From Chondrosia reniformis (taxonomy: Eukaryota; Porifera; Demospongiae; Chondrillida; Chondrillidae): a stretch of DNA of 64,000 bases. Positions 3,485 through 59,123 of this stretch are shown here, in pieces; position 1 is the stretch's first letter, and each line of letters starts with the position of its first letter. The stretch is from NCBI GenBank assembly GCA_947172415.1, contig OX359190.1, positions 8,184,001-8,248,000 of the forward strand, given 5' to 3'. The notes beneath the pieces are model-generated. The model searched no databases. It had not been told where the DNA came from and saw only the letters and a list, made by a program, of their open reading frames with translations. The translations under genes were made by a program, and so were the position numbers.

Positions 3485-3561
3485 ATTGCTAAAATTCCTC
3501 AAGTAAATTTGTTACCATACACATACAAACATACATATTTTGTCCCTAATGACCCATATAA

Positions 3562-5103: not shown

Positions 5104-6633
<1,530 letters not shown>

Positions 6634-6786
6634 CTGCACACAAGTAAGGTACAATGTTCAGTGCATTTAGCAGCGGTTAGGGAATGACACAGTCATCTTA
6701 TAGTAGTAGAACTATCAGGGCTTCCTTTAGAAGGTATACAATATAGTAATATGTGGCAAGGCAATCAAGTACAATATGGCAATTTA

Positions 6787-6872
6787 AAATTAGTCTTGCA
6801 CATCTAAAGGAACATTCTGTAATGTTTTTGTTGAAATATACTTTGTTTAAAGGTTGACGTCACTACATTTTA
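6787..6872 (+). repeat. 84-bp dispersed repeat at the copy-A breakpoint
   Basis: Closely matches 3562-3645, starting TAGTCTTGCACATCTAAAGG and ending GTCACTACATTTTAA. It abuts the point where copy A stops resembling copy B. Confidence 0.8.
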
Positions 6873-13748: not shown

Positions 13749-14327
13749 GCCATGATATACTAAAGGACTATTACACAAAGACAGCTGAAAGTAGATAGGC
13801 ATATGATACAAGTACATAGTAGTCTCTCCAGCCAGTGGAGATCCCATGTTCAGGTAGGGTAGTGCTGATTCTGTGAGATCTCCATTCCATAGGACCTTAA
13901 TAAGGAAGTACTAATCCAATGAATAACATTATGAGCCCTTAAGTTTATTCATTGGTATATTAATGTTATTCATCTGTTTTCCTTCCCTGCAGGTGCAAGT
14001 ATGACTGGTAGCTACCAATTAAAGGATGACATCTACTTCTGTATTATTTGCAACAGTGTTGGGTCCACTGGTAAATATAACTGTGATGATGTTCTCCCAA
14101 CAAGGTCAACAAGGTCAGATGGTCCCCCAGGTCCACCTGGAGCAATTGTGTATGTTTGTTTGAATACAAAGAAAACTGTCAGAAAGGAGAAAATCATGCA
14201 AGTGGATCCTGACAGAGCAGTAACCATGGTAACCATGGAGTCAGTGGTGCTTGTTATATCTGATGATTCAATATTGTATCTCATACCTTATATTCTCTCA
14301 CAGTATGCATTATAAGCGAGGATGGTT
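13749..14327 (+). repeat. Local tandem duplication inside copy B, unit 1
   Basis: This unit, from GCCATGATATACTAAAGG to GATGGTTCTAG, recurs at 14653-15222 with about 95% similarity by eye. Copy A has a single unit. It duplicates the 5' GPPGPPG-coding exon region of the collagen gene. Confidence 0.85.
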
Positions 14328-14652
14328 CTAGAGGTACGTGCCAGCCATTTTCCAGCTTCATCTTACTGGACAACCTTTGATTCTTCTAGGCACATCAGCA
14401 TAGCTACTGTTGGCCTAGGAAAATATACTGTTGCAGGATTCAAGGTATGTAAGCAAGCAATACGTTTAGCATTACTCCAGTTTTACCACTTCAGGCACAA
14501 AATAGTGCAAGATATAATTTACATGTATTTATATATACGTATACGTATATTTGTAACTTGCACTGTATATCAAGCAAAGTCCACCACACGACCGTCAGGC
14601 GCTAGGACACCGCATGCGGTATGAACAATCTTGCTCAACAATGTTTTGTCTT
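14328..14652. other. Unique 0.33-kb spacer between the local duplicates
   Basis: Absent from copy A. It contains a short open stretch (SRHISIATVGLGKYTVAGFK) followed by a GTATGT donor-like site. Origin unknown; possibly a captured exon or the original flank of the duplicated unit. Confidence 0.4.
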
Positions 14653-15222
14653 GCCATGGTACACTAAAGGACTATTACACAAAGACAGCTGAAAGTAGGT
14701 AGGCGTATGATACAAGTACATTTTAGTCTCTCCAGCCAGTGGAGATCACATGTTCAGGTAGGGTAGTGCTGATTCTGTGAGATCTCCATTCCATAGGACC
14801 TTAATAAGGAAGTACTAATCCTATGAATAACATTATGAGCCCTTAATGTTATTCATTGGTATATTAATGTTATTCATTTATTCTCCTTCCCTGCAGGTGC
14901 AAGTGTGACTGGTACCAATTAAAGGATGACATCTACTTCTGTATTTGCAACAGTGTTGGGTCCACTGGTGAATATAACTGTGATGACGTTCTCCCAACAA
15001 GGTCAACAAGGTCAGATGGTCCCCCAGGTCCACCTGGATCAATTGTGTATGTTTGTTAAAGAAAACTGTCAGAAAGGAAAAAATCATGCAAGTGGATCCT
15101 TAGAAAGTGACAGAGCAGTAACCATGGTAACCATGGAGTCAGTGGTGCTTGTGATGATTCAATATTGTATCTCATACCTTATATTCTGTCACAGTATGCA
15201 TTATAAGCGAGGATGGTTCTAG
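14653..15222 (+). repeat. Local tandem duplication inside copy B, unit 2
   Basis: Second unit of the 13749-14327 duplication. It is directly continuous with the downstream collagen exons, so it corresponds to the single unit of copy A. Confidence 0.85.
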
Positions 15223-17224
15223 GGGTCCCCTGGTCCTCCTGGAGCAAATGGCTTGCAAGGGCAAAGAGGAGAGAAAGGTCCAGTTGTAAGTAAATTTACC
15301 TACAGTTTGAATCACTCTTTAAAAGTGTAAACTTCCTCACATCAGGATGATCCTGGATCAAAAGGAATAGACAGAGAACTAGGCAGGTCCGGTGACCCTG
15401 GTCCAGTTGGCGATACATGCAGGTCCCAGTGGTCCAGCTGGAGCTGCTGTGAGAATACAACTTAGTGAGAAACTAGGTTAGATGTGATGGAAAAATTGTT
15501 GCATTAATTAGGGTCTTCCTGGAGAAACTGGTTTGGAAGGTTACCCGGGTGCATGTGGTCCTGATGGAACCAATGGTAACCCAAGGCGAAGAGGTGAACT
15601 AGGTACCCAGGGACCTTCAGGCAAAGATGGTATTCCAGGTGTCCCCAGAGGGGCAGGCCCTAAGGGTGAGAGAAGTGATCCAGGAGGGCAAGGTAATCCT
15701 GGAGCACCACATCCACCAGGAAGTGTAGGTGTGGGTGGACCTATAGTGGAAGTCAAGGACCCCAAGTGAGTTACAAAAATCCTTGCTTTACAAACTTAAA
15801 TATTCATGCATAAGAAGTATATAAGGAATTTTAAGATAATTAAAAACATCTGTCAATTTTTAGGGTGAAAATGGTGTGGATGGCAGACCTGGACATAATG
15901 GAAATCAAGGTAAATCTGGTCAGAAAGGAGAACAGGGACCCATTGGGCCTCAAGGTGCCAGAGTAAGTGGATTTACATGTCAGAACCAAAAGTGCTAATT
16001 GTTCAAGATTGTGATCATTTCTGGATTTAATGGTGCAGTTGGTAAACCAGGAGTTGGTGGTTCACAGGGAGATCGTGGTGAGAATGGACTCCGTGGTGCT
16101 CCAGGTGCTGTTGTAAGTGAAACCAGCTAGCATTGCATGCATCTAGGTTGTTACGTACTATAATTTAGGGAGGAAGGGGAGTTAGAGGTTTTAATGGAGA
16201 ACCTGGTAATCCAGGTGCTGTTGGAGACCCAGGCAGCAATGGTGAGCATGGTAGCCCTGGTAAACAAGCCCTAATGGTCTCTCTGGAATAGCTGCATGGA
16301 GCAGCAGTGAGTTAATTGATATTATGCATTCAAAAACCTGATAGTCATTCTCCTCGTGAGTGGCCTGATTGAAGCATACTGCATGTTGGTGGACTACATT
16401 TCATCCTCTGTAGAGTGTGAGTGGTCTTACTGGTGCAACTGGTTCACAAGGTGTCAAAGGTGTCAAGGGAGATATAGGTTCTACTGGGGCACAAGGTGAT
16501 CAAGGAGAAAAGGTCAGTTAAACTCTTTGTTAAGATCTTACATAGTAGGTAGCATCCTGTGGACTAAAAGTATGTTTTTCTATCATTTTAATTACATATT
16601 TTAGTAAAATGTCTAATATTGTATGCAATTCACTGGCAGGGTATGAGAGGTGATGTTGGAAGTCGTGGAGGTGATGGTACAAGTGGAAGTGCTGGTACAG
16701 AAGGTAATAATGGAGCAAAGGGTGCCATTGGATCAGCTGGTATATATATCGTCTGGTTTACAAGGTGCAGCAGTAAGTACAGCATTTATATGAATAATTG
16801 TAGTGTTGATCAGAGTACAAATAATCATTCTCAGACATCATTTTAAAGAGAATAAACAACTGTTCCGAAACAAGTTCTAGTGATTCACCTATATATTTAG
16901 ATATATATCAGAACAAGCTGACTATGTATGTGTTATATAACTTTACAACTGATCAATCAAAAAATTAGATAGTAAATTGAAGTGTGCCATTTTGGTTTTG
17001 CATAATCTAATCAATGTACGTATACTTTTGTCACTACATGTGTATGTATGTATATGTTTAGGGTCCCAGAGGACCTGCAGGTGGTCCTGGTATAACTCAG
17101 GACAACAGGGTCTACCTGGAACAGGTGGAAATCATGGTCCAACTGGTGCAGCCGGTCCCCAAGGTGCTGACGGATCTCCTGGTCTTGCTGGTCCACAGGG
17201 AATTACTGGTCCTATAATTAATTA

Positions 17225-18847
17225 ATTGCTAAAATTCCTCAAGTAAATTTGTTACCATACACATACAAACATACATATTTTGTCCCTAATGACCCATATA
17301 ATTAGTCTCGCATGTCTAAGGGAACATTCTGTAATGTTTTTGTTGAAATGTACTTTGTTTAAAGGTTGACGTCACTACATTTTAAATGATGCAATAGATC
17401 TATATACAGTAGTTGCAATCACGATGAATAAAAACATTTGGATAATGTGTGTACATAATTGGTGGATTTTCTAACTGTTTATATACACCATTGCCATGGC
17501 ATTGATCTGATAATGGGTGGCATGCGTTATTTACTTATCTATACCATGTTCAGTGTGAATTGCAGATTAATAGGATATATGGCGTGAACAAGTTTATACA
17601 GAAAGTTAAGTACATCTTACATCCTTTTCTTTAGTCACTGAAGCAAATTCCAAATATGCATACTGATCCTTTGCTTTTTAGCCATTTGGATCTTGGGCTG
17701 CCATGGTAACGGGGTATACGTAAATCCCATAAACCATATTTGGCTATATGTACGTATAGCCCTGACCTTGACTATATATATTTGACTAAGTGCTGCATGT
17801 ACATATATACAGTATTTGTAAGCTTAATTTAAGTTAACCATAAACTAAATTTAGTAGGTATATTATCTAGGTAGACAGATATTTACGAAGCTAACACTTT
17901 ATGCCCACATTCACACTGTCAGATATCAACATATCGGATGAGTTTTACAAAGAAGATCACCTATGATAAAGATATATACTCAAAATTAGTTGCAAACTAC
18001 ATATTGCTATAAACTAAAACACTAAATTTTGTTTAATTTGATGATTTAAATGGTTTCTCAACTCCAGCTATATGATAGGAAAACCTCAGAATAGTACCAC
18101 TGTTCGAATACTACATGGAAAAGGTAGAAGACACACTACAAACTAAAAATATATAATGTATAATACATACGTAGATACATTAATGGATATAGTACATATC
18201 TCCATCTACGTATACCTAAAAATGATTACATTTCTCTCAGTGCAATACACATACTGTACGTTTAGGCTCTTTAACGTTAACCTTTAACCTCTAATGAGGG
18301 TATTATTGAATGTGAGTATATTACACATGCAGGGACAGGAGTGTAGGACAAGTGATGCCAATCAGGTAGGAATACTCTGACATTTACTTTACAGTGGTTT
18401 TAGAGAGAAATGCTCGGAAATTCAGGCTACAGTGACTAAATAGAACAAATTAAAATATGAGCTGGTTATATACTGTAAAACCATTTATTAGTGTGCACCA
18501 TTAATGTTAGCAAAAATAGTGATGCAATATCATTGACTAACATTTATGGTCGCTAAAATGTTTATTATTACACATGTGCAGTAGTGTGGAGCAAGTATTT
18601 ATAACAAAATGCTAAATTTAATGGACACTAATAAGTCATATACGGTAAAAACGCTAGATATAATGGATGTTAATATTAAGGGTTTTACAGTACGTATGTA
18701 GTTGTGTGCATTTTACAGAATTAAGGCATTTATTTTATTTAAAGCTGAAAAGGCAGATATATACCAACAGCATTTTCTGGCTCTAATAAACAAGTGATAT
18801 ACTTCTGTTATGTACAGAATCATCAAAAGGATTACAAGTGTATACAA
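17225..18847. other. Intergenic region between convergent collagen copy B and ADH
   Basis: Duplicate of 3485-5103, with the 84-bp repeat (17302-17385) and the small inverted-end element (about 18470-18692). The element copy here has a 9-nt insertion near 18636 compared with copy A. No coding exon seen. Confidence 0.6.
18470..18692. mobile_element. MITE-like element with inverted ends (copy B)
   Basis: Duplicate of the element at 4736-4949, with the same CTGTAAAACC / GGTTTTACAG ends. Confidence 0.5.
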
Positions 18848-22301
<3,454 letters not shown>

Positions 22302-28865: not shown

Positions 28866-29606
28866 TTTAGAGGTGAGCTATAATTGGAGTAACATATGTA
28901 ATAACAGAAATTTGTTTCCCGCCAAAAGTTTAAACACACTGATTTTGTTAAGTCTGATGCAATCAGGCCATTTCATTTCATTACGCAACCATAATTTGAC
29001 AATATGTAATAAGAATCTGCCAAAAGCATAAATTTAGAAATTTTATAACTAAAATCTTCTAGTCACTTCAACCCATATTATTTATTCATACAGATGATCA
29101 TGCCTGTTTGTAATGTGCTGTTAGTTTATAAAATTGCTTGCAGTATGTCAGTGGAGAGTTGTATGAATTGGATGGGGACATGTTTAAAAGCTGCATGAAC
29201 TGGAAGATCACCTAATTTATGCATTAGGAAGGTTGTTCAGTGTAGGATAATTGAGGATGAACCAGTGGAGGATCGTAGTGACAGTGCCAAGCCTAAACAA
29301 TTTGGTGGAATGCATCATCAATGTTGTTGGTTGTTTATTTTATGACTATATATTAACATACGTATATATTTAACTTGCTGCTTTGTACATATATATGTAT
29401 GTATAGGGCAGAAACTTGAACAATGTTCTAAAAATAGATATAAGCATAACTATTGCATCACAATATTGTTCAAGTATGAGTGTCACTGACACTATGGTAG
29501 TTTGCAAGCCACCTCAATTTAGTCCAAATGGACAGTTAACAGCTCCCATTCTAGTAAGTATGTATACGTATACCTACGTAACCAGATCTGTGTACATATG
29601 TATATA
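28866..29606. other. Region between PIAS promoter and satellite array
   Basis: Probable 5' flank of the PIAS gene for the first few hundred bases. No further gene recognised. AT-rich with TACGTATA-type runs; satellite begins at about 29607. Confidence 0.4.
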
Positions 29607-30570
29607 TACATTAAAATCTACCGTTCAAAGTTAATGTATGGTGAGAGACAGGGCAAATATGAACAAACTTCTAAAACTGTTTGGAAATGTTTCATACATG
29701 TCTGTGAATACTGACATCAAGTATTAGCTTCACATCTTACTGTTTGATGGAGTTATGATCCTTAATGTACATTAAAATCTACCGTACAAAATTAATGTAT
29801 GGTGAGATATAAGGCAAATATGAATAAAAATTCAAACTTCTAAAACCATATAAAGTTAATGTATGGTGAGAGAAAAGGCAAGTATATATGAACAAAATTT
29901 GAAACTTCTAAAACTCTTTGTAAATGTTTCATACATGTCTGTGAATGCTGACATCAAGTATTAGCTTCACATCTTTCTGTTTGATGGAGTTACAACCCTT
30001 AATGTACATTAAAATCTACCGTACAAAGTTAGTGTATGGTGAGAGATAGAGCAAATATGAACAAAATTTGAAACTTCTAAAACTCTTTGGAAATGTTTCA
30101 TACATGTCTGTGAATACTGACATCAAGTATTAGCTTCACATCTTACTGTTTGATGGAGTTATGATCCTTAATGTACATTAAAATCTACCGTACAAAATTA
30201 ATGTATGATGAGAGATAAGGCAAATATGAATAAAAATTCAAACTTCTAAAACCATATAAAGTTAATGTATGGTGAGAGAAAAGGCAAATATATATGAACA
30301 AAATTTGAAACTTCTAAAACTCTTTGTAAATGTTTCATACATGTCTGTGAATGCTGACATCAAGTATTAGCTTCACATCTTTCTGTTTGATGGAGTTACG
30401 ACCCTTAATATACATTAAAATCTACCACACAAAGTTAATGTATGGTGAGATATAGGGCAAATATAAACAAATATTGAAACTTCTAAAACTGTTTGTAAAT
30501 GTTTCATACATGTCTGTGAATCCTGACATCAAGTATTAGCTTCATATGTTGGTGTTTGAAAGAGTTACAG

Positions 30571-31138
30571 CAATAAATGTGTATTAAATCTATATATACG
30601 ATAATTGTACAATACTATAAATGGCCGACCGTGAGAATGTACCAAATGCGTTACTATAATATATGTATATCCGAATAACTAGAGCGCTTACAAAGATTTC
30701 TTATGCACATGGATATGCACTGTATAGTACTTGATTGTTGTTGAAGTAGTATATATCCACATATATTATATGGATGTCGTTAAAGTGAAATTTTGCCAAT
30801 CGACGGCCAACGAAAGTCCAAAGAAAAAAAGTTGGACCATACCGAACGCTACCATCCACGACGCTCAGAGGCCGGGATCGGTGGTAACGCTCTGCCGAGT
30901 TGAGCTTTGGGTGTCACTTGCGTGAGAAGAACCAGTTCTTCTCGATATGGCCGACTCATATGAATCCTAAGATATCAGATGCCAATCCCACATTACGTGG
31001 AACCCCCCCGAAATCCGGATTATTGGTGAGCACGTCTCTATGGCACCAACCGATTAGGAGACAGCTTCAGAGTCTAAGCGCTACCAACCTCTATGGGAAC
31101 CGCAACCACCATAGAGATGTGTCCAGGTAGGCCTACTT
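30571..31138 (+). repeat. Non-satellite island, copy 1
   Basis: 568 bp of less AT-rich unique sequence, identical by eye and without indels to 35341-35908 and 39526-40093. Two overlapping short open frames occur (from an ATG at 30770 to a stop at 30925, and 30900-31130), neither resembling a known protein. It contains a perfect 9-bp inverted repeat GAGAAGAAC-CA-GTTCTTCTC (30924-30943) and another stem (CTCTATGG ... CCATAGAG, about 31090-31117). It ends at GGCCTAC just before a TTTATAAGG sequence. Downstream similarity to the other copies then drops sharply. Confidence 0.8.
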
Positions 31139-31149
31139 TATAAGGTTTT

Positions 31150-31640
31150 GCGCTTCTATTTAAACAACAAAATTTCAAAAGGAAACGATTGTGGTTGGTG
31201 CTATTCCACACTTAAAAATAGGGTATTTGCGAGAAAAATATAGTCAAATTATATCAAGTTAATTCGGGATCAGTGCATCGTTCCAAGCCATTTTAAAGGT
31301 ATATCCAGTATTTGTGGTTCATCTAGAAACTGGGAAAAATGGATAGAATCCTGTAAGTGTCTTGATTGGCGGAGGAGAACTACTTTTCTGGTCCCACGTA
31401 GAAACGATTTTAGCGAGAGGTGTTCCGATATGAACGTAACCAGCCACACTCAATCTCAATTACTGTAATAGTATAATGGCTACCTGCCTCTATATAAAGA
31501 CCTTCTGATAGCTGCGTTCTGGACTGTCCCTGCGTGTTTCTAGTTGTCCCATTCATGTCAAATCATTTTTGCTTGGTATGCTGATAATTTCCATAATAGT
31601 ATCGCACGATATAAATGCTACACCATTAAAAGTCGTATAG
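31150..31640 (+). repeat. Diverged second repeat family downstream of island 1
   Basis: Contains a module (ATCAGTGCATCGTTCCAAGC ... GTAAGTGTCTTGATTGG) that is clearly but imperfectly related to 36001-36170 and 36172-36340, and to their copies near 40186-40525. This defines a second ~171-bp repeat, unrelated to the main satellite. Confidence 0.65.
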
Positions 31641-31975
31641 TAGAAATTTAATGTACATTATGGTGCTGTAACTCTTCCAAATGAAAAGATATGAATCTGA
31701 AACTCTATCTCAGTATTCACAGAGATGTAAGAAAAGTTTTCATTGAGTTTTGCAAATTTTGATATCTACTCATACGTATATGCCCTATCTCTCACCATGC
31801 ATCAACTTCGTATAGCAGTAATTTAAAATACATTAAGTGCTGTAACTCTTCCAATTGAAGAGATATGAATCTGAAACTCTATCTCAGTATTCACAAAGAT
31901 GTAAGAAAGGTTTTCATTGAGTTTTGCAAATTTTGATATATATATATCTATTTAAATTTGCCCTATCTCTCACCA
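31640..31975 (-). repeat. Inverted, diverged satellite monomers
   Basis: Two monomers run opposite to the array: CCCTATCTCTCACCAT (complement of ATGGTGAGAGATAGGG) ends each, and GCTGTAACTCTTCCAA corresponds to the complement of the GGAGTTAC region. A head-to-head junction occurs at about 31975-31995, where inverted CTCACCAT meets direct ATGGTGAG. Confidence 0.8.
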
Positions 31976-34900
31976 TATGTATGTAATGTATGGTGAGAGA
32001 TAGGGCAAATATGAACAAAAATTGAAACTTTTAAAACTATTTGTAAATGTTTCATACATGCATATGTCTGTGAATGCTGACATCAAGTATTAGCTTCACA
32101 TCTTATTTACTGTTTGATGGAGTTAGGACCCTTAATGTACATTAAAATCTACCACACAAAGTTAATGTATGGTGAGAGATAGGGCAAATATGAACAAAAT
32201 TTGAAACTTCTAAAACTGTTTGTAAATGTTTCATGCATGTCTGTGAATGCTGACATCAAGTATTAGCTTCACATCTTACTGTTTGATGGAGTTACGACCC
32301 TTAATGTACATTAAAATCTCCCACACAAAGTTAATGTATGGCGAGAGATAGGGCAAATATGAACAAAATTTGAAACTTCTAAAACTATTTGTAAATGTTT
32401 CATACATGTCTGTGAATGCTGACATCAAGTATTAGCTTCATATCTTACTGTTTGATGGAGTTACGACCTTTAATGTACATTAAAATCTACCACACAAAGT
32501 TAATGTATGGTGAGAGATAGGGCAAATATGAACAAAATTTGAAACTTCTAAAACTGTTTGTAAATGTTTCATACATGTCTGTGAATGCTGACATCAAGTA
32601 TTAGCTTCACATCTTACTGTTTGATGGAGTTACGACCCTTAATGTACATTAAAATCTACCACACAAAGTTAATGTATGGTGAGAGATAGGGCAAATATGA
32701 AAAAAATTTGAAACTTCTAAAACTCTTTGTAAATGTTTCATACATGTCTGTGAATGCTGACATCAAGTATTAGCTTCACATCTTTCTGTTTGATGGAGTT
32801 ACGACCCTTAATATACATTAAAATCTACCACACAAAGTTAATGTATGGTGAGATATAGGGCAAATATAAACAAATATTGAAACTTCTAAAACTATTTGTA
32901 AATGTTTTATACATGTCTGTGAATACTGACATCAAGTATTAGCTTTATATCTTACTGTTTGATGGAGTTACGACCCTTAATGTACATTAAAATCTACCAC
33001 ACAAAGTTAATGTATGGTGAGAGATAGGGCAAATATGAAAAAAATTTGAAACTTCTAAAACTCTTTGTAAATGTTTCATACATGTCTGTGAATGCTGACA
33101 TCAAGTATTAGCTTCACATCTTTCTGTTTGATGGAGTTATGACCCTTAATGTACATTAAAATCTACCACACAAAGTTAATGTATGGTGAGAGATAGGGCA
33201 AATATGAAAAAAATTTGAAACTTCTAAAACTCTTTGTAAATGTTTCATACATGTCTGTGAATGCTGACATCAAGTATTAGCTTCACATCTTACTGTTTGA
33301 TGGAGTTACGACCCTTAATGTACATTAAAATCTACCACACAAAGTTAATGTATGGTGAGAGATAGGGCAAATATGAACAAAATTTGAAACTTCTAAAACT
33401 CTTCGTAAATGTTTTATACATGTCTGTGAATGCTGACATCAAGTATTAGCTTCACATCTTACTGTTTGATGGAGTTACGACCCTTAATGTACATTAAAAT
33501 CTACCACACAAGTTAATGTATGGTGAGAGATAGGGCAAATATGAACAAAAATTTGAAACTTCTAAAACTCTTCGTAAATGTTTTATACATGTCTGTGAAT
33601 ACTGACATCAAGTATTAGCTTTATATCTTACTGTTTGATGGAGTTACGACCCTTAATGTACATTAAAATCTACCACACAAGTTAATGTATGGTGAGAGAT
33701 AGGGCAAATATGAAAAAAATTTGAAACTTCTAAAACTCTTTGTAAATGTTTCATACATGTCTGTGAATGCTGACATCAAGTATTAGCTTCACATCTTTCT
33801 GTTTGATGGAGTTACGACCCTTAATGTACATTAAAATCTACCATATAAAGTTAATGTATGGTGAGAGATAGGGCAAATATGAACAAAATTTGAAACTTCT
33901 AAAACTCTTCGTAAATGTTTTATACATGTCTGTGAATGCTGACATCAAGTATTAGCTTCACATATTACTGTTTGATGGAGTTACGACCCTTAATGTATAT
34001 ACATTAAAATCTACCACACAAGTTAATGTATGGTGAGAGATAGGGCAAATATGAAAAAAATTTGAAACTTCTAAAACTCTTTGTAAATGTTTCATGCATG
34101 TCTGTGAATGCTGACATCAAGTATTAGCTTCACATCTTTCTGTTTGATGGAGTTACGACCCTTAATATACATTAAAATCTACCACACAAAGTTAATGTAT
34201 GGTGAGATATAGGGCAAATATAAACAAATATTGAAACTTCTAAAACTATTTGTAAATGTTTTATACATGTCTGTGAATACTGACATCAAGTATTAGCTTT
34301 ATATCTTACTGTTTGATGGAGTTACGACCCTTAATGTACATTAAAATCTACCACACAAAGTTAATGTATGGTGAGAGATAGGGCAAATATGAAAAAAATT
34401 TGAAACTTCTAAAACTCTTTGTAAATGTTTCATACATGTCTGTGAATGCTGACATCAAGTATTAGCTTCACATCTTTCTGTTTGATGGAGTTACGACCCT
34501 TAATGTACATTAAAATCTACCACACAAAGTTAATGTATGGTGAGAGATAGGGCAAATATGAAAAAAATTTGAAACTTCTAAAACTGTTTGTAAATGTTTC
34601 ATACATGTCTGTGAATGCTGACATCAAGTATTAGCTTCACATCTTACTGTTTGATGGAGTTACGACCCTTAATGTACATTAAAATCTACCACACAAAGTT
34701 AATGTATGGTGAGAGATAGGGCAAATATGAACAAAATTTGAAACTTCTAAAACTCTTCGTAAATGTTTTATACATGTCTGTGAATGCTGACATCAAGTAT
34801 TAGCTTCACATCTTACTGTTTGATGGAGTTACGACCCTTAATGTACATTAAAATCTACCACACAAGTTAATGTATGGTGAGAGATAGGGCAAATATGAAA

Positions 34901-35340
34901 AAAATTTGAAACTTCTAAAACTCTTTGTAAATGTTTCATGCATGTCTGTGAATGCTGACATCAAGTATTAGCTTCACATCTTTCTGTTTGATGGAGTTAC
35001 GACCCTTAATATACATTAAAATCTACCACACAAAGTTAATGTATGGTGAGATATAGGGCAAATATAAACAAATATTGAAACTTCTAAAACTATTTGTAAA
35101 TGTTTCATACATGTCTGTGAATGCTGACATCAAGTATTAGCTTCACATCTTTCTGTTTGATGGAGTTACGACCCTTAATATACATTAAAATCTACCACAC
35201 AAAGTTAATGTATGGTGAGATATAGGGCAAATATAAACAAATATTGAAACTTCTAAAACTGTTTGTAAATGTTTCATACATGTCTGTGAATCCTGACATC
35301 AAGTATTAGCTTCATATGTTGGTGTTTGAAAGAGTTACAG

Positions 35341-36520
35341 CAATAAATGTGTATTAAATCTATATATACGATAATTGTACAATACTATAAATGGCCGACC
35401 GTGAGAATGTACCAAATGCGTTACTATAATATATGTATATCCGAATAACTAGAGCGCTTACAAAGATTTCTTATGCACATGGATATGCACTGTATAGTAC
35501 TTGATTGTTGTTGAAGTAGTATATATCCACATATATTATATGGATGTCGTTAAAGTGAAATTTTGCCAATCGACGGCCAACGAAAGTCCAAAGAAAAAAA
35601 GTTGGACCATACCGAACGCTACCATCCACGACGCTCAGAGGCCGGGATCGGTGGTAACGCTCTGCCGAGTTGAGCTTTGGGTGTCACTTGCGTGAGAAGA
35701 ACCAGTTCTTCTCGATATGGCCGACTCATATGAATCCTAAGATATCAGATGCCAATCCCACATTACGTGGAACCCCCCCGAAATCCGGATTATTGGTGAG
35801 CACGTCTCTATGGCACCAACCGATTAGGAGACAGCTTCAGAGTCTAAGCGCTACCAACCTCTATGGGAACCGCAACCACCATAGAGATGTGTCCAGGTAG
35901 GCCTACTATATAAGGTTTTTCGCTTGTATTTATATGAAGTTTTGTCCAAAGGAAACGGTTGTGGTTGGGGCTTTTTTTATATATTTCTCGTTATTTCCAG
36001 ATCAGTGAATTGTTCCAAGCAAGTTTAAAGACATAGTCAGTATTAGTGGTTCATCTGAAAACTGGAGAAGGCGGAAAAAATCCAGTAAGTGTCTTGATGG
36101 GCCGAGGAAAACGACTTTTCTGATCCCAATTATTTTTGAGAAATCGTCAAATTATTCCACTTTAATTCCAGACCAGTGAATCGTTACAAGCAATTTTACA
36201 CACATACGCAATATTTCTAATACATCTCAAAACTGTGGCAAATAGATAAAAGCCAGTATGTATCTTGATGGAGGGAGGAAAGAGACTTTTCTTGATGCCG
36301 AAAATTATATTTGCGAGGACTGATATTTATCGCCTCTACGATATTAATGTCTATGATCGATATTACAACTAGGCCGCGGCCGGCTGTATGAATTACTCAA
36401 TTCCTAACTAAACATTTGAGAGAGTGATGTACCGATTAAAATAGATTCCAATTTCTAGGCTAAATAATGTTTTGAAAGCAACTGTAGCTTCAATAATATA
36501 TTGTAGGATATACTCATATG
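35341..36520 (+). repeat. Non-satellite island, copy 2 (extended)
   Basis: The 568-bp island plus about 0.6 kb more: a TATATAAGG sequence at about 35910, two tandem ~171-bp modules (from 36001 and 36172) and a GC-rich palindromic GGCCGCGGCC motif near 36373. Identical by eye to copy 3 over the full length (offset 4185). Confidence 0.85.
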
Positions 36521-39500
36521 TATGGTAAGACATATATATATGAACAAAAATTGAAACTTCTAAAACTATTTGTAAATGTTTCATACATGTCTGTGAATGC
36601 TGATATTAAGTATTAGCTTCACATCTTGCTGTTTGATGGAGTTACGATCCTTCATGTACATTAAAATCTGCCCTACTAAGTTAATGTATGGTGAGAGATA
36701 GGGCAAATGTGAACAAAAATTTGAAACTTCTAAAACTCTTTGTAAATGTTTCATACATGTCTGTGAATGCTGACATCAAGTATTAGCTTCACATCTTTCT
36801 GTTTGATGGAGTTACGACCCTTAATATACATTAAAATCTACCACACAAAGTTAATGTATGGTGAGATATAGGGCAAATATGAACAAAATTTGAAACTTCT
36901 AAAACTCTTTGTAAATGTTTTATACATGTCTGTGAATGCTGACATCAAGTATTAGCTTTATATCTTGCTGTTTGATGGAGTTACGACCCTTAATGTACAT
37001 TAAAATCTACCACACAAGTTAATGTATGGTGAGAGATAGGGCAAATATGAAAAAAATTTGAAACTTCTAAAACTCTTTGTAAATGTTTCATACATGTCTG
37101 TGAATGCTGACATCAAGTAATAGCTTCACATCTTTCTGTTTGATGGAGTTACGACCCTTAATATACATTAAAATCTACCACACAAAGTTAATGTATGGTG
37201 AGAGATAGGGCAAATATGAAAAAAATTTGAAACTTCTAAAACTGTTGGTAAATGTTTCATACATGTCTGTGAATGCTGACATCAAGTATTAGCTTCACAT
37301 CTTACTGTTTGATGGAGTTACGACCCTTAATGTACATTAAAATCTACCACACAAAGTTAATGTATGGTGAGAGATAGGGCAAATATGAAAAAAATTTGAA
37401 ACTTCTAAAACTCTTTGTAAATGTTTCATACATGTCTGTGAATGCTGACATCAAGTATTAGCTTCACATCTTACTGTTTGATGGAGTTACGACCCTTAAT
37501 GTACATTAAAATCTACCACACAAAGTTAATGTATGGTGAGAGATAGGGCAAATATGAAAAAAATTTGAAACTTCTAAAACTGTTTGTAAATGTTTCATAC
37601 ATGTCTGTGAATGCTGACATCAAGTATTAGCCTCACATCTTATTTACTGTTTGATGGAGTTACGACCCTTAATGTACATTACAATCTACCATACAAAGTT
37701 AATGTATGGTGAGAGATATATAGGGCAAATATGAACAAAAATTGAAACTTCTAAAACTCTTTGTAAATGTTTTATACATGTCTGTGAATACTGACATCAA
37801 GTATTAGCTTTACATTTTACTGTTTGATGGAGTTACGACCCTTAATGTACATTAAAATCTACTACACAAAGTTAATGTATGGTGAGAGATAGGGCAAATA
37901 TGAAGAAAAATTGAAACTTCTAAAACTATTTGTAAATGTTTTATACATGTCTGTGAATACTGACATCAAGTATTAGCTTTATATCTTACTGTTTGATGGA
38001 GTTACGACCCTTAATGTACATTAAAATCTACCACACAAGTTAATGTATGGTGAGAGATAGGGCAAATATGAAAAAAATTTGAAACTTCTAAAACTCTTTG
38101 TAAATGTTTCATACATGTCTGTGAATGCTGACATCAAGTATTAGCTTCACATCTTACTGTTTGATGGAGTTACGACCCTTAATGTACATTAAAATCTACC
38201 ATATAAAGTTAATGTATGGTGAGAGATAGGGCAAATATGAACAAAATTTGAAACTTCTAAAACTCTTCGTAAATGTTTTATACATGTCTGTGAATGCTGA
38301 CATCAAGTATTAGCTTCACATATTACTGTTTGATGGAGTTACGACCCTTAATGTACATTAAAATCTACCACACAAGTTAATGTATGGTGAGAGATAGGGC
38401 AAATATGAAAAAAATTTGAAACTTCTAAAACTCTTTGTAAATGTTTCATGCATGTCTGTGAATGCTGACATCAAGTATTAGCTTCACATCTTTCTGTTTG
38501 ATGGAGTTACGACCCTTAATATACATTAAAATCTACCACACAAAATTAATGTATGGTGAGATATAGGGCAAATATAAACAAATATTGAAACTTCTAAAAC
38601 TCTTTGTAAATGTTTTATACATGTCTGTGAATACTGACATCAAGTATTAGCTTTATATCTTACTGTTTGATGGAGTTACGACCCTTAATGTACATTAAAA
38701 TCTACCACACAAAGTTAATGTATGGTGAGAGATAGGGCAAATATGAAAAAAATTTGAAACTTCTAAAACTCTTTGTAAATGTTTCATATATGTCTGTGAA
38801 TGCTGACATCAAGTATTAGCTTCACATCTTTCTGTTTGATGGAGTTACGACCCTTAATGTACATTAAAATCTACCACACAAAGTTAATGTATGGTGAGAG
38901 ATAGGGCAAATATGAAAAAAATTTGAAACTTCTAAAACTGTTTGTAAATGTTTCATACATGTCTGTGAATGCTGACATCAAGTATTAGCTTCACATCTTA
39001 CTGTTTGATGGAGTTACGACCCTTAATGTACATTAAAATCTACCACACAAAGTTAATGTATGGTGAGAGATAGGGCAAATATGAACAAAATTTGAAACTT
39101 CTAAAACTCTTCGTAAATGTTTTATACATGTCTGTGAATGCTGACATCAAGTATTAGCTTCACATCTTACTGTTTGATGGAGTTACGACCCTTAATGTAC
39201 ATTAAAATCTACCACACAAGTTAATGTATGGTGAGAGATAGGGCAAATATGAAAAAAATTTGAAACTTCTAAAACTCTTTGTAAATGTTTCATACATGTC
39301 TGTGAATGCTGACATCAAGTATTAGCTTCACATCTTTCTGTTTGATGGAGTTACGACCCTTAATATACATTAAAATCTACCACACAAAGTTAATGTATGG
39401 TGAGATATAGGGCAAATATAAACAAATATTGAAACTTCTAAAACTGTTTGTAAATGTTTCATACATGTCTGTGAATCCTGACATCAAGTATTAGCTTCAT

Positions 39501-39525
39501 ATGTTGGTGTTTGAAAGAGTTACAG

Positions 39526-40705
39526 CAATAAATGTGTATTAAATCTATATATACGATAATTGTACAATACTATAAATGGCCGACCGTGAGAATGTACCAA
39601 ATGCGTTACTATAATATATGTATATCCGAATAACTAGAGCGCTTACAAAGATTTCTTATGCACATGGATATGCACTGTATAGTACTTGATTGTTGTTGAA
39701 GTAGTATATATCCACATATATTATATGGATGTCGTTAAAGTGAAATTTTGCCAATCGACGGCCAACGAAAGTCCAAAGAAAAAAAGTTGGACCATACCGA
39801 ACGCTACCATCCACGACGCTCAGAGGCCGGGATCGGTGGTAACGCTCTGCCGAGTTGAGCTTTGGGTGTCACTTGCGTGAGAAGAACCAGTTCTTCTCGA
39901 TATGGCCGACTCATATGAATCCTAAGATATCAGATGCCAATCCCACATTACGTGGAACCCCCCCGAAATCCGGATTATTGGTGAGCACGTCTCTATGGCA
40001 CCAACCGATTAGGAGACAGCTTCAGAGTCTAAGCGCTACCAACCTCTATGGGAACCGCAACCACCATAGAGATGTGTCCAGGTAGGCCTACTATATAAGG
40101 TTTTTCGCTTGTATTTATATGAAGTTTTGTCCAAAGGAAACGGTTGTGGTTGGGGCTTTTTTTATATATTTCTCGTTATTTCCAGATCAGTGAATTGTTC
40201 CAAGCAAGTTTAAAGACATAGTCAGTATTAGTGGTTCATCTGAAAACTGGAGAAGGCGGAAAAAATCCAGTAAGTGTCTTGATGGGCCGAGGAAAACGAC
40301 TTTTCTGATCCCAATTATTTTTGAGAAATCGTCAAATTATTCCACTTTAATTCCAGACCAGTGAATCGTTACAAGCAATTTTACACACATACGCAATATT
40401 TCTAATACATCTCAAAACTGTGGCAAATAGATAAAAGCCAGTATGTATCTTGATGGAGGGAGGAAAGAGACTTTTCTTGATGCCGAAAATTATATTTGCG
40501 AGGACTGATATTTATCGCCTCTACGATATTAATGTCTATGATCGATATTACAACTAGGCCGCGGCCGGCTGTATGAATTACTCAATTCCTAACTAAACAT
40601 TTGAGAGAGTGATGTACCGATTAAAATAGATTCCAATTTCTAGGCTAAATAATGTTTTGAAAGCAACTGTAGCTTCAATAATATATTGTAGGATATACTC
40701 ATATG
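39526..40705 (+). repeat. Non-satellite island, copy 3 (extended)
   Basis: Copy of 35341-36520 at a constant 4185-bp offset, including the same two short open frames, the GAGAAGAAC inverted repeat and the TATATAAGG site. Direct satellite resumes at about 40720. Confidence 0.85.
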
Positions 40706-41164
40706 TATGGTAAGACATATATATATGAACAAAAATTGAAACTTCTAAAACTATTTGTAAATGTTTCATACATGTCTGTGAATGCTGATATTAAGTATTA
40801 GCTTCACATCTTGCTGTTTGATGGAGTTACGATCCTTAATGTACATTAAAATCTGCCCTACTAAGCTAATGTATGGTGAGAGATAAGGCAAATATGAACA
40901 AAAATTTGAAACTTCTAAAACTGTTTGTAAATGTTTCATACATGTCTGTGAATGCTGACATCAAGTATTAGCTTCACATCTTGCTATTTGATGGAGTTAC
41001 AACCCTTCATGTACATTAAAATCTGCCCTACTAAGTTAATGTATGGTGAGAGATAGGGCAAATATGAACAAAAATTAAAACTTCTAAAACTATTTGTAAA
41101 TGTTTCATACATGTTTGTGAATGCTGACATCAAGTATTGGCTTCACATCTTGCTATTTGATGGA

Positions 41165-42800
41165 GTTACGGTAGTTAGATAATTTTACAATTATTAAATG
41201 TGAAAATGGACCCTTAAAAGGTTAGACTAGGCAGTTTTTACTCTAAGCGCTAAATTACATCTTACTGTTTGATGGAGTTACGACCCTTAATGTACATTAA
41301 AATCTACCACACAAGTTAATGTATGGTGAGAGATAGGGCAAATATGAACAAAATTTGAAACTTCTAAAACTCTTTGTAAATGTTTCATACATGTCTGTGA
41401 ATGCTGACATCAAGTATTAGCTTCACATCTTTCTGTTTGATGGAGTTACGACCCTTAATATACATTAAAATCTACCATATAAAGTTAATGTATGGTGAGA
41501 TATATAGGGCAAATATGAATAAAAATTCAAACTTCTAAAACCCTTTTCAAATGTTTATATGTCTGTGAATGCTGACATCAAGTATTGGCTTCACATCTTA
41601 CTGTTTGATGGAGTTACGACCCTTAATGTACATTAAAAAATCTACCACACAAAGTTAATGTATGGTGAGAGATAGGGCAAATATGAACAAAAATTGAAAC
41701 TTCTAAAACTCTTTGGAAATGTTTCATACATGTCTGTGAATGCTGACATCAAGTATTGGCTTCACATCTTGCTATTTGATGGAGTTACGGTAGTTAGATA
41801 ATTTTACAATTATTAAATGTGAAAATGGACCCTTAAAAGGTTAGACTAGGCAGTTTTTACTCTAAGCGCTAAGTTACATCTTACTGTTTGATGGAGTTAC
41901 GACCCTTAATGTACATTAAAATCTACCACACAAGTTAATGTATGGTGAGAGATAGGGCAAATATGAACAAAATTTGAAACTTCTAAAACTCTTTGTAAAT
42001 GTTTCATACATGCATGTTTGTGAATGCTGACATCAAGTATTGGCTTCACATCTTACTGTTTGATGGAGTTACGACCCTTAATGTACATTAAAAAATCTAC
42101 CACACAAAGTTAATGTATGGTGAGAGATAGGGCAAATATGAACAAAAATTGAAACTTCTAAAACTCTTTGGAAATGTTTCATACATGTCTGTGAATGCTG
42201 ACATCAAGTATTGGCTTCACATCTTGCTATTTGATGGAGTTACGGTAGTTAGATAATTTTACAATTATTAAATGTGAAAATGGACCCTTAAAAGGTTAGA
42301 CTAAGCAGTTTTTACTCTAAGCGCTAAGTTACATCTTACTGTTTGATGGAGTTACGACCCTTAATGTACATTAAAATCTACCACACAAGTTAATGTATGG
42401 TGAGAGATAGGGCAAATATGAACAAAATTTGAAACTTCTAAAACTCTTTGTAAATGTTTCATACATGTTTGTGAATGCTGACATCAAGTATTGGCTTCAC
42501 ATCTTACTGTTTGATGGAGTTACGACCCTTAATGTACATTAAAAAATCTACCACACAAAGTTAATGTATGGTGAGAGATAGGGCAAATATGAACAAAAAT
42601 TGAAACTTCTAAAACTCTTTGGAAATGTTTCATACATGTCTGTGAATGCTGACATCAAGTATTGGCTTCACATCTTGCTATTTGATGGAGTTACGGTAGT
42701 TAGATAATTTTACAATTATTAAATGTGAAAATGGACCCTTAAAAGGTTAGACTAGGCAGTTTTTACTCTAAGCGCTAAGTTACATCTTACTGTTTGATGG
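41165..42800 (+). repeat. ~453-bp higher-order repeat within the satellite
   Basis: A 90-100 bp non-satellite segment (GTAGTTAGATAATTTTACAA ... CTCTAAGCGCTAA) is inserted after the same monomer position at about 41170, 41791, 42245 and 42698. The last three spacings are about 453 bp and the first about 621 bp (one extra monomer). Each unit holds about two satellite monomers plus the insert. Confidence 0.85.
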
Positions 42801-43429
42801 AGTTACGACCCTTAATGTACATTAAAATCTACCACACAAGTTAATGTATGGTGAGAGATAGGGCAAATATGAACAAAATTTGAAACTTCTAAAACTCTTT
42901 GTAAATGTTTCATACATGTCTGTGAATGCTGACATCAAGTATTAGCTTCACATCTTTCTGTTTGATGGAGTTACGACCCTTAATATACATTAAAATCTAC
43001 CATATAAAGTTAATGTATGGTGAGATATATAGGGCAAATATGAATAAAAATTCAAACTTCTAAAACCCTTTTCAAATGTTTATATGTCTGTGAATACTGA
43101 CATCAAGTATTAGCTTCACATCTTACTGTTTGATGGAGTTACGACCCTTAATGTATATACACAGTGAATCACATTCTGAATCAAATAAATGTGTAGCGGC
43201 TTCACTAGCTGGTTCAGTGTTTTTCTATTGTGTTTACTGGTACAAAGAGACTGCTATTATACAAAAACAATGCCATATATTTAAATGTACAGTTTTATAT
43301 TCACATTTCATCATGGCCTTTGCACAGCGTTTGTTCAATTAGCCCCTCCTTTATACAGTATATTATACATCTTACTGTGTGTTCTGTACATACTGGCCAT
43401 TGACCTTTGCCTATATTTTAGTGGAGGAA

Positions 43430-54159: not shown

Positions 54160-57100
54160 ATGGCTGATGAACAAAGCAGAAAGATGTGTTTTTGTAACGA
54201 ATGTCATGGACAACTAGTGGCCAGAGCTACGATGTACAGGCATATGCGTAAAATTAAACAAAAGCAAGAACAAGGAGCTCGAGGTAGAGATGGTGAAATA
54301 TTTCAACGCAATCCTTTTGAAGCAGAAATTTCCAGTTCTGATGAGGACGAAGCTCAGTGGCTTAAGGTCAGACACTCGTACTTTAATATAACTAGACCTC
54401 TTACCCCAAGTTTTTTCTGTATGCAAATATTCTCAAAGTTTACATCCCGAAATCTGGGCGTATGTACCATAGAGGCGAGTACTATCTCAGTAAGGGATGA
54501 CCGAAAAAGTCCTATTCGATGTATTACGAGTTGACGGGTTAATATATAGCAATGAACTTCCTTTTCGTACGATTTCAATCGAGAGAAAGGTGTTTTCAGT
54601 AGCGCAAAGTAGCTCTAAGTTGCTAAAACAGTTTCAGGCGTTTACAACTAAGGGGAAATCATCTTTACTGAACGATTTAATTGTGTAATAGAATAAGGAT
54701 TCCCTCCTAACTCCGCTTATCTTTAGGATGGTACATCCTTCGACTTTTTGAGTACTTAGAAACGCTCAAAAAGTCGAAGGATGTATCATCCTTAAATCTG
54801 TTCGTACGTACTATAGAGGCGAGTACTCTCTCAGTACGAAAAAGCCCTATTCGATGTATTACGAGTTGACGGGTTAATATATAGCAATGAACTTCGTTTT
54901 CGTACGATTTCAATCGAGAGAAAGGTGTTTTCAGTAGCGCAAAGTAGCTCTAAGTTGCTAAAACAGTTTCAGGCGTTTACAACTAAGGGGAAATCATCTT
55001 TACTGAACGATTTAATTGTGTAATAGAATAAGGATTCCCTCCTAACTCCGCTTATCTTTAGGATGGTACATCCTTCGACTTTTTGAGTACTTAGAAACGC
55101 TCAAGAAGTCGAAGGATGTATCATCCTTAAATCTGTTCGTACGTACTATAGAGGCGAGTACTCTCTCAGTACGAAAAAGCCCTATTCGATGTATTACGAG
55201 TTGACATGTTAATATATATAGCAATACACTTCCTTTTCGCACGATTTCAATCGAGAGAAAGGTGTTTTCAGTAGCGCAAAGTAGCTCTAAGTTGCTAAAA
55301 CATTTTCAGGCGTTTACAACTAAGGGGAAATCATCTTTACTGAACGATTTAATTGTGTAATAGAATAAGGATTCCCTCCTAACTCCGCTTATCTTTGGGA
55401 TGGTACATCCTTCGACTTTTTGAATATTTAGAAACTCTCAAATGTCGAAGGATGTATCATCTCAAAGATAATTTAATTGTGTCCCTGGAGCCATACATGC
55501 ACACAGATGTAAAGAAAAAGGATAACTTCAATTTGATTGTATAAGTTAACTTTTATTGCATGATTAATACAAACAAATCGGGTGTAACATTCACACTAAA
55601 CGTTTAACAGTTCCGGTTTTAGGAACTAGGGAATAGGCACATTCTGTTTCAAAATGATCTGTGCAAAGATGGTTACTTAGAGCACGTTAGAAAATACGAA
55701 CTCTTCGCCACCATTTTTAATTAGGACTTAGCTTGTTCCACATGTTTTCGTATAATTACATATTAGTTTATTGTTTATCCCCAATGTCTTCATGCATGTT
55801 GTTCATTTTGTATGTAATTTTCTATATACTTCAGAAGAGGCCTCTGACAGCAGAGTCAAACTTAAGTGATCAACCTTATCCACCTACTGGAATTGATCAA
55901 TTAGTCCATTCAGATGGTGCAAATGTAGAGATCGAACCAGCCTATGATTCAGATTACAATTGCAAGCCACCAGTAAAGTGTGCAAGAACCATTCCAGCAG
56001 ATGAAGAGGTATATATGCATGTATATAAAACTGGTAAAATGCAGTGCATGAGACGTTCTCACTGGAAGTTTAATTATAGTCACTGTAATCCCCTATATAC
56101 TCACACCTCACAATTGGTGTGATCATTTCACTTCATTTTAACTGAGAGTTATAATGTATATATTTTTAATCGTATGCCATGGCCATGAGTAACATGAATG
56201 GAGCATGGTTCAATGGCAGAGCACTGGTGCATGGTCTTAACCAGCTGTACTGCATGCATGGGTTTTATTCCCAGCAATTACTTCTTTCGTGTTTTCCTCT
56301 TCATGATGTTCAAGAATATTTACTTGTGGTTTTATTATCAAGTTAATCAATTTAGTCATTTATAATGTCATGTAGGAAATGTCTCAAGCTGTATTGGAGG
56401 CAGAGGAACACTGTATAGATGTATCAAACTCTGATGAATTGGTTGTAGAATCTGCAGACAGTGATAGCTTCATTATGCAAGGACTACCTGAAGCTGACTT
56501 TGATGACATGAATAGCACAGATGATTCAAGTGCTGACCACAGCGATTCAGATGAAGAATGTTTTCTGGACGTGATAAATACAGAAGAAAGAAACCTTCAA
56601 GGTCCCATAACATCACTGATTAGATGGTTACTCATTCTTCTTTTTCGATGGTATGTAAAGTGGCGCATTAGTGATCGAGCTATGGATTGGTTGCTGAAAA
56701 TTCTGAGTACCTTTTTCAAATTACTTGGTAAGCAGCAGATGTTCATGAATGAAGCAGCTGTAGAATTTTCTAAAAACCTATCTGGACTGCTTAGGTCAAT
56801 GAAATTCAGTAAGGAAACTTTCAGCAAGTCTGTTGTGTGCCCAAATCCAGAGTGTGCAAGGTTGTATAGCCAATCGGATATCATTGCATATGATGGAAAT
56901 GGTCAACCAGCAGCTGTTTCTTGTACTAACTGTGGTTCTCAATTGTCTAAAGAGGTTACTTTAAAAAATGGCACAAAACGATTTTCTCCCATAAAGGTAT
57001 ACTGTTATAATAGCATTAAGGAATCTTTAAATCTCCTACTCCTACGACCTCATTTTTTTCAGGTATGCCAAGATTGGAAAACAAGGGAAGTTCCAAGTAA

Positions 57101-59123
57101 CACCTTGTGCGATATTTATGATGGCCAAGTCTGGAAAACCATGTTTTCTTCCCAGTCACATGCACTTGATGAAGGGAGACTAGACCTAGGAATTATGATA
57201 AACTGTGATTGGTTTCAACCATATAAACGCCGCTCTAATATTTCTATTGGAGTTTTATATGCAGTGATAGCCAATCTTCCATGGACAATGCGCTTTCTTC
57301 CTGAAAATGTCTTAATTTTGGGGATTTTACCTGCCTTGTCAAAGGAACCGTCTTCTCTTAATACATTTCTTCAACCACTAATTACCGAATTGCTGCTACT
57401 TCAAAATGGAATGGAGATGACTACAAGTGAGACCAAAAAAGTTATAGTATCAGCCAAGATCATCTGCACAGCTAGTGATATACCAGCCACACGAAAACTT
57501 GGTGGATTTCTAAGTCATGCAGCAACTGTGGGATGCTCCAAGTGCATGAAATCTTTTCCTACTATACTAGTCAACAATGCTAGGAAAAGAAACTACTCTG
57601 GATTTCAAAGAGATACATGGCCAAAAAGGACAAATGACACTCATAGATCAAATGTTCAGAAAATTACCTCAGCTAGTACAAAAGCTAAAAGGCAACTTTT
57701 AGAAAAACAATATGGCTGCAGGTACACAGCTTTACTGGACTTGCCATACTTTGATCCAATTGTAAACCATATTGTTGACCCAATGCACAATCTATTTTTG
57801 GGAACAGCGAAAAAGATGTTCAAACTATGGATTGAACTTGATTTTCTGCGCTTTGCTGCTCTTCGTAAGGTTGATGATAGAATTTCCTCTTTGTCTATAC
57901 CTTTTCAAGTAGGACGCATTCCAACTAGTATATCATCAAATTTTGGGAATTTTACAGCCGCTGAGTGGAAAAACTGGACACTCATATACTCATTATACTG
58001 TTTACCTGGCTTGATACCTATTGAGCACTTAGCTTGTTGGCAAACATTTGTTTTAGCTTGTGAATTACTTTGTCAGCCATTCATTTCTCAGCAGAATTTA
58101 CTAAAAACAGATCACTTATTGATGAAATTTTGCAAAACGATAGAAAGAGTGTATGGTATTGGTACAATTACACCAAATATGCACATGCATGGCCACCTTG
58201 CGGAGTGCATAAACCAATATGGTCCAATTGCCTCCTTTTGGCTTTTCTCTTTTGAACGCTACAATGGTCTTCTAGGGTCCTTTACCAATAATAAGCGAAA
58301 TATAGAAATGCAATTGATGCGTAAATTTCTAGCTATCTCCCATTGTAGTAATATTAATATTTCTCCCATGGCCAATGATGAAGAGTCAGATTTTGTTGCA
58401 ATATTTGAAAGTATGCAATCAGGTAGGAAAGATACTAAAACTGGTTCAAAATCTTCCCAAATGATTTCACAGTCCACATACTATGCCTCTGAAAAACCAA
58501 TAACAGAAGTGGTATGGTGTGAAGTTATTACACAAGATGTGCAACTTGCAAGAGCCCCAAATTCAGGCACTTTAGTATCACTTGATAAGGACGATTTGTC
58601 CTATCTAAAATCTGTATACGTTCTCCTATTCTCCAGATCTAACTATGCCATTTCTGATCAGTTGCCCTCTCTGTGTAAGAAGTATCCTTATATTTATATA
58701 GGATCACAGCGATATGGATCTAAGTGTTTTGGAAAGAATTGTAATTCTCGCTACATACAAGCATCTTGGACAAAAGACGATGGCACTATAAACACAGAGT
58801 CATATATTTTATATCCTGGTGAGGTCCAGCATTATTTGAACCATTCTTTCATGGTCAAATGTAACAATCAAGAAAAATATATCAGTATCACACTTGCAGT
58901 TGTTAAATGGTATAAAGCAACATCTAGAAACAACAAATCTTTCCTCCCTCCTCTTATTGAATTTTCCTTGGGAAATTACATTACCGGTGGTCCAGCAAAC
59001 TTTCTACCTGTTCAACGAATTGCTAACTTAGTTTCCGTTGGTGTTAACTATACTCTTGAACCCTTAAATTCATTGGAGAAGATAGCCATTCCTTTATCGA
59101 AGAAAAATTTTGTTACTTTTTGA
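54160..59123 (+). CDS. EnSpm/CACTA Tnp2-type transposase
   Basis: Three exons: 54160-54366, 55835-56008 and 56376-59123, all phase 0, about 1042 aa. Exon 1 has a short Cys/His finger (CFCNECHGQLV ... MYRHMRK). Acidic linkers precede a second Cys cluster (CPNPECARL ... CTNCGSQL). The catalytic core carries CDWFQPYK (near 57205), NHIVDPMHNLFLGTAK (57766-57813) and FSFERYNGLLGSF (58246 on), the D...D...E arrangement of Tnp2 transposases, which cut and paste the element by binding its ends. The large exon is uninterrupted and no frameshift or internal stop was seen, so the gene may be active or recently active. Intron 1 holds a tandem repeat with hairpins; intron 2 holds a SINE. Confidence 0.9.
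54480..55470 (+). repeat. ~335-bp tandem repeat with palindromes in transposase intron 1
   Basis: Three tandem copies, with AGGATGGTACATCC near 54725, 55060 and 55396. Each contains a ~70-bp palindrome (54722-54792, 55058-55128, 55394-55465) with arms CATCCTTCGACTTTTTGAG and its complement. The core TTCGACTTT is shared with foldback elements in the PIAS gene, so a foldback element was probably caught up in the tandem expansion. Confidence 0.9.
56200..56345 (+). mobile_element. tRNA-derived SINE, copy 2
   Basis: Head with degraded A box (TGGTTCAATGGCAGAGC) and B box (GGGTTTTATTCCC). The tail CAGCAATTACTTCTTTCGTG ... TACTTGTGGTTTTATT matches the SINE at 23308-23462. Sits in transposase intron 2, so it inserted into the CACTA element or was carried with it. 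Confidence 0.7.

Follow-up and report, generated by a model that had tools for sequence, protein, structure and literature searches.

Arrays of 5S ribosomal DNA (rDNA), for example those of Esox, contain several spacer variants (PMC5437419, in part), and in satellite 2 of newts and salamanders and in animal retrozymes the repeats of a ~330-bp satellite yield discrete RNAs (PMC7229834, in part). The Cg_HINE of the oyster are Helentron-type elements that carry satellite arrays and have characteristic left and right flanks (PMC7492417, in part), and satellites derived from short interspersed elements (SINEs) are also known (PMC10702118, in part). Here we analyse a 64,000-bp stretch of chromosome 2 of the kidney sponge Chondrosia reniformis (positions 8184001-8248000; hereafter the window), in which three islands, beginning at 30571, 35341 and 39526, are embedded in a 169-bp satellite and share a 306-bp block that is invariant between the subfamilies of a genome-wide family. 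On the evidence of the sequence, we put it at about an even chance that the island is a multicopy, minus-strand gene for a non-coding RNA (ncRNA) whose arrangement resembles that of 5S rDNA, the satellite being the spacer.

An invariant 306-bp block and exchange between subfamilies

The genome comprises 117,379,552 bases in 15 contigs, and the chromosome table in its published description lists 14 chromosomes and a mitochondrion, with chromosome 2 at 10.29 Mb (PMC12181767, in part). A search of it for other copies of the island, as the original prediction had proposed, returned 881 matches (442 + 439) to a 29-base hairpin word at up to three mismatches, against 0 for the reversed control. Copies fall into three subfamilies, a, b and c, by the tail that follows the island; with up to three mismatches, the class a tail word gave 368 sites, against 1 for its control, and the class c word 130, against 0. 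The best 40 island matches are 93-100% identical and the best 40 tail matches 90-100%.

Final counts refer to 71 copies (12 a, 40 b, 19 c) out of the 881 hairpin sites. Most loci were picked by the core word or by an island BLAST match, which biases the sample toward conserved cores; loci L049-L068 were picked by tail words instead, with 7 tail-anchored copies missed at locus edges, and the core word was lacking in 0 of 72 tail-anchored copies. Locus L013 was excluded from the conservation counts because an insertion of ~4.3 kb interrupts its island (L013:155-5050), with 12 island bases on either side, possibly a target duplication.

Over positions 30832-31137 the consensus sequences of the three subfamilies are the same at every base, and the same 306 letters occur in 37 of the 71 sampled copies (9 a, 13 b, 15 c), with 26 distinct versions overall. 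Outside this block the class consensuses diverge by 8-18% (30716-30831) and 26-32% (30600-30715) to the left, and by 25-30% (31138-31200) and 32-62% (31201-31450) to the right. Within classes a, b and c, 7, 20 and 3 of the 306 columns are variable, versus 20 of 260, 85 of 222 and 51 of 224 downstream (Fisher P = 0.003, 1e-19 and 1e-17, respectively); moreover, among 117 copy pairs whose flanks are 2-5% apart, a somewhat larger core (30770-31127) differs by 0.55%. The natural unit in the sampled copies is this block, which is shorter than the island. Its G+C content is 52%, versus 30% in the satellite left of island 1. A protein-coding island was rejected, with stops throughout all six reading frames and no long open reading frame (ORF).

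The three islands of the window had been described as identical and free of indels over 568 bp, with an abrupt edge at which copy 1 departs from the other two. Base-by-base alignment bears this out for 567 bp; base 568 (31138) already differs, copy 1 having T where the other two have A. Copies 2 and 3 stay identical past the edge, as stated, for 1560 bp in all. The left end at 30571 is no edge, and the island is not bounded there: identity extends leftward into the satellite, so that copy 1 matches copy 2 over 815 bp and copy 3 over 838 bp, and copies 2 and 3 match each other over 1560 bp. Copy 1 does switch tail, but not exactly at the island end, the tail classes beginning to differ at ~31150. 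Position 31138 does not by itself diagnose the tail class: of 37 copies, 19 have T, 16 have A and 2 have a gap, and T is carried by all 12 class a copies as well as by 12 of the 38 class b copies that could be read. The tails a and b are recognisably related, yet different in sequence. A left-flank type common to all three window islands (distance 0.290 from the majority), unlike tails (distance 0.344 for copy 1 vs 0.041 for copies 2 and 3) and the rare base 30816G that the three have in common (3 of 37 copies) therefore mark the abrupt edge as a recombination junction between subfamilies, in or beside the block, where a common left side is joined to tail a (copy 1) or tail b (copies 2 and 3).

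Such exchange extends beyond the window. Thirteen class b and 3 class a copies carry a TA insertion at 30968, and 31104T occurs in copies of all three classes; at locus L021, two neighbours with different tails have 31104T and private bases near the left border in common. Islands of one left type carry either tail a or tail b, and a class-a-like left side is joined to tail b at L019, L020 (one of two) and L027. Crossover or conversion inside the identical block would yield left-side/tail chimeras of this kind without harm to the block. Gene conversion and selection had been offered as alternative causes of the conserved island, and both appear to be at work: in each of the three subfamilies variation is lower in the block than in the flanks, and variants and flank types are common to different subfamilies.

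A candidate RNA gene on the minus strand

The islands are units of a large tandem and dispersed family, and we propose that this family evolves in concert like an RNA-gene array with satellite spacers. In each unit the invariant block would be the gene body; it is set in surroundings that are fairly conserved, and repeats of the 169-bp satellite form the spacer. The block would most likely be transcribed from the minus strand as a structured ncRNA of ~306-314 nt, starting near 31137 with TATA-like words upstream and ending at the T-run 30830-30824, probably by RNA polymerase III (Pol III). The sequences show the invariance of the block, where it ends on either side, the three subfamilies and their exchange; transcription, its strand, the polymerase and any function of the RNA we infer from the following features of the letters themselves.

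5S genes end in a T-run. A T-run, as expected of the terminator at the 3' end of a Pol III gene, is found at the left border of the block: on the minus strand, 69 of 71 copies have at least four T there, mostly T6-T7, the other 2 giving no call; in class c the run has moved by one base with its length of 7 kept in 16 of 19 copies. No other run of at least 6 A or T occurs between 30450 and 31700. By chance, such a run would fall within 10 bases of one particular edge, on one particular strand, in ~0.4% of cases, and therefore in less than 2% across the four choices of edge and strand.

The block contains inverted repeats, as had been described, one being GAGAAGAACCAGTTCTTCTC at 30924-30943 and the other having arms at 31031-31043/31109-31121 that are 92% complementary. 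In favour of a minus-strand RNA, the fold of that strand is spared by 20 of the 27 observed kinds of substitution (null 14.4, P = 0.008), and 17 of 27 are compatible with the plus-strand fold (null 14.0, P = 0.13). In addition, the diverged copies at L014 and L028, on different chromosomes, have a longer block; its insertion, in minus-strand reading, contains UUUGC(UUCG)GCAGA and so a hairpin of the form C(UUCG)G.

Upstream on the minus strand, TWTAAATAG and a second TATA-like word occur in all three class consensuses; at 31156..31164 the class b consensus is TATAAATAG, with one base different in islands 2 and 3, and TAAATAGAAG is retained in the consensus of every class. Further upstream, the conserved word AACCACAA lies at nearly the same distance as in one U2 gene (P = 0.002-0.009, the three related classes being effectively one observation); compared with U6, its region gives P = 0.7-0.99 and has no long word in common.

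Several results weigh against this proposal. As a general promoter element of small nuclear RNA (snRNA) genes, AACCACAA found no support in a genome-wide test: exact copies of the 17-mer are confined to 2 U2 genes, its hits total 649 vs 754 for the control, neither of the U2 genes C3:8103923 and C4:268751 has a 17-mer match even when 2 mismatches are allowed, and of the 100 17-mer sites listed none adjoins a U1 or U5 gene. On the plus strand, positions 31138-31145 read TATATAAG or TTTATAAG in class b and TTTATAAG in class a, and TTTATAAG is also the TATA-like word before the U6 gene of Chondrosia reniformis. The fold-compatibility test ignores mutation context, and when five variants confined to L014 are left out the minus fold is spared by 16 of 22 kinds (P = 0.033) and the plus fold by 15 of 22 (P = 0.135). 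Folding energies (z = -2.61 for 306 nt of the plus and -1.97 for 296 nt of the minus strand) clearly favour neither strand. Conservation is higher in the left flank, which would lie downstream of the gene, than on the side where the promoter is proposed. The internal A and B boxes of a type 2 Pol III gene were not found in the block, which has no B box within 2 mismatches on either strand and an A box only at 2 mismatches (strict form) or 1 (loose form). Nor does the block match any Rfam family at gathering or permissive thresholds; with E allowed up to 5, only two matches appear (E = 1 and 4.6), both scoring far below the family cut-offs and both located outside it, at 31544-31728.

Known RNAs (5S, signal recognition particle (SRP), RNase MRP, U1, U2, U5 and U6) were rejected as candidates, their covariance models finding no match in the block; genes for SRP, RNase MRP, U1, U2, U5 and U6 are located elsewhere in the genome. 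Rfam likewise gave no tRNA, 5S or 7SL match and no hammerhead or other ribozyme in the island. A type I hammerhead ribozyme (RF00163, 34.6 bits, cut-off 34) occurs in the flanks of three locally duplicated island loci (L010:3014-3058, L015:2644-2688 and L018:2644-2688), the one at L010 inside a palindromic repeat.

Conversion without any product is an unlikely explanation of the same data. The block would then be that part of a satellite higher-order unit in which recombination and conversion between copies are most efficient; its likeness would keep it open to conversion, which the diverged flanks would by now escape. The variants and flank types common to several classes fit this, as do the private variants of the unlike-tailed neighbours at L021 and the 30816G and 815-838 identical bp that the window islands have in common. 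However, ATGGCCGACC, TAAATAGAAG and AAACGnTTGTGGTTGG, short conserved words outside the block, lie amid diverged bases, an arrangement not predicted by conversion alone; the T-run at one block border, and residual substitutions that spare the fold of one strand, also stand against it.

The RNA-gene proposal can be extended, more tentatively and at somewhat less than an even chance, to an abundant structured ncRNA of ~306-314 nt that would be undescribed and present in hundreds of near-identical copies, with the 169-bp satellite, enriched near chromosome ends, serving as the spacer of a second '5S-like' multigene family. Island words have 0 matches each in public viral and prokaryotic contigs, the word 'satellite' is absent from the main text of the Chondrosia reniformis genome paper (PMC12181767, in part), and no title on satellites of this species is among the literature matches listed. 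Identity to the letter in half of the sampled copies, within surroundings up to ~60% diverged, implies either function at nearly every base or very efficient homogenising. In the former case an early-branching phylum would have yielded an animal RNA that is both new and abundant; in the latter, the family would be a natural experiment on how gene conversion maintains a uniform core while the satellite around it drifts.

Dispersal of the units and layout of the window

Island and tail words are dispersed by the hundreds over both strands and all 14 chromosomes. Perfect class-a sites number 99 in 43 clusters, 23 within 10% of a chromosome end vs 8.6 expected; there are at least 100 perfect class-c sites, and among the matches listed (into chromosome 11) these form 35 clusters, 21 within 10% of an end vs 7.0 expected. 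Neighbours within 12 kb have a median spacing of 3.8 kb (108 gaps). The order in the sampled copies is satellite, island, tail, satellite, with inverted satellite after class a tails, and solitary copies, with none other within 10 kb, also occur.

This dispersal, together with the solitary copies, would fit a non-autonomous mobile element with the satellite as its cargo, comparable with the Helentron-type elements of the oyster, in which the block is the core required in cis and is kept by the need for mobilisation. One solitary copy, at L027, also has 61-bp inverted repeats (89%) near both satellite edges (L027:3754-3814 and 8770-8830); one of the two lies, by eye, in an apparent intron beside an exon. 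To describe the island as part of an unknown element, as had been suggested, is fair, but the mobile explanation is doubtful and rather improbable: outer edges of the copies inspected end at varying satellite phases, with no common terminal sequence except in local duplicates, and conservation peaks in the middle of the unit, not at its ends. A Helentron/HINE was rejected for want of constant terminal flanks, 10 left and 12 right ends differing by eye; the exceptions are local duplicates, 5 with a common left flank and 3 of these also with a common right flank. By eye, neither a terminal inverted repeat nor a target duplication is seen at the block borders, the block ends being TTGGACC... and ...GGCCTACT and the neighbouring bases AAAAAAAG / ATATAAGG.

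A plus-strand promoter in the island, from which satellite transcripts would start at ~31165, is very improbable: in its favour are the plus-strand words of classes a and b given above, with their U6 counterpart, and AAGGTTTT and CTTCTATTTA, retained downstream in every class consensus, but a promoter does not usually need 306 invariant upstream bases, the would-be transcribed region diverges by 25-62%, and class c reads ATTATAAG in 18 of 19 copies. The TATA-like box that the original prediction had pointing into the array was not established as a promoter; read from the minus strand, and so toward the island, the same bases give TATAAA, TATATA or TATAAT in the three class consensuses, the consensus plus-strand word TATATAAG is confined to class b, and the invariance lies in the island, not downstream of the TATA.

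Features of the islands and of the surrounding satellite in the window
Feature	Position	Strand	Remark
Left part of island 1	30571..30831	+	differs between subfamilies
Invariant block, island 1	30832..31137	-	proposed ncRNA gene body; 0/306 consensus differences
Invariant block, island 2	35602..35907	-	identical to island 1
Invariant block, island 3	39787..40092	-	identical to island 1
T7 run (A7 on +), island 1	30824..30830	-	proposed Pol III-type terminator
T7 run, islands 2 and 3	35594-35600; 39779-39785	-
TATA-like site of the original prediction, TTTATAAGG	31137..31145	+	minus strand CCTTATAAA
TATA-like word TTTAAATAG	31156..31164	-	-27 to -19 if start = 31137
Conserved upstream word AACCACAA	31189..31196	-	candidate promoter element; at -57 of one U2 gene too
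Tail class a, island 1	31138..31650	+
Tail class b, island 2	35908..36537	+
Tail class b, island 3	40093..40722	+	identical to island 2 tail
Inverted satellite	31647..31977	-	after tail a
169-bp satellite array	29604..30567	+
169-bp satellite array	31984..35338	+	19.8 copies
169-bp satellite array	36538..39523	+	17.6 copies
169-bp satellite	40723..43152	+	~450-bp higher-order units

The satellite of the window has a unit of 169 bp, and its arrays of 17.6 and 19.8 copies are long head-to-tail repeats of this single monomer, as is characteristic of satellite DNA. The higher-order units of ~450 bp span 41170-43152, the first holding, by eye, an extra ~87 bp (41170-41256). A palindrome of the monomer, TTAATGTACATTAA, coincides by eye with some outer satellite edges, as if it were a breakpoint: near 29604 and 43152 in the window, and at loci L010, L015 and L018. 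To the left of the satellite is a large direct duplication (1-6791 and 12840-20532, 96-98% identity), with a Kelch-repeat ORF (11952-12749) between its two copies. Elsewhere in the window are a 335-bp unit in about three tandem copies, 91-95% identical (54443-55461), and an ORF of 914 amino acids with a Transposase_21 (tnp2) match (56379-59123, E = 2.9e-13).

Comparison with known systems

Like SINE-derived satellites, in which interspersed sequence derived from RNA genes is linked to tandem repeats (PMC10702118, in part), the family joins a dispersed sequence to a satellite; unlike them, its island has no tRNA, 5S or 7SL match, and the SRP RNA gene was found elsewhere. With Cg_HINE it has in common satellite-like tandem repeats that are dispersed genome-wide with a non-repeat module, whereas the inspected outer ends vary here and the conserved module is internal and noncoding. 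Newt satellite 2, which has an snRNA-type promoter, is alike in being a satellite with an RNA product, here proposed only; in contrast to it and to the retrozymes, the island lacks a ribozyme, and the conserved block is embedded in the satellite rather than being its monomer. Of the arrangements known, that of 5S rDNA with its variable spacers comes closest. The sponge family departs from it in the 306-bp length of its block, which has no Rfam 5S or other match and no convincing A or B box, and in a spacer that is itself a 169-bp satellite. What it has in common with 5S rDNA (PMC5437419, in part) is a short conserved region, transcribed in 5S and only proposed to be so here, beside a more variable spacer, with concerted evolution and arrays that are both block-like and dispersed.

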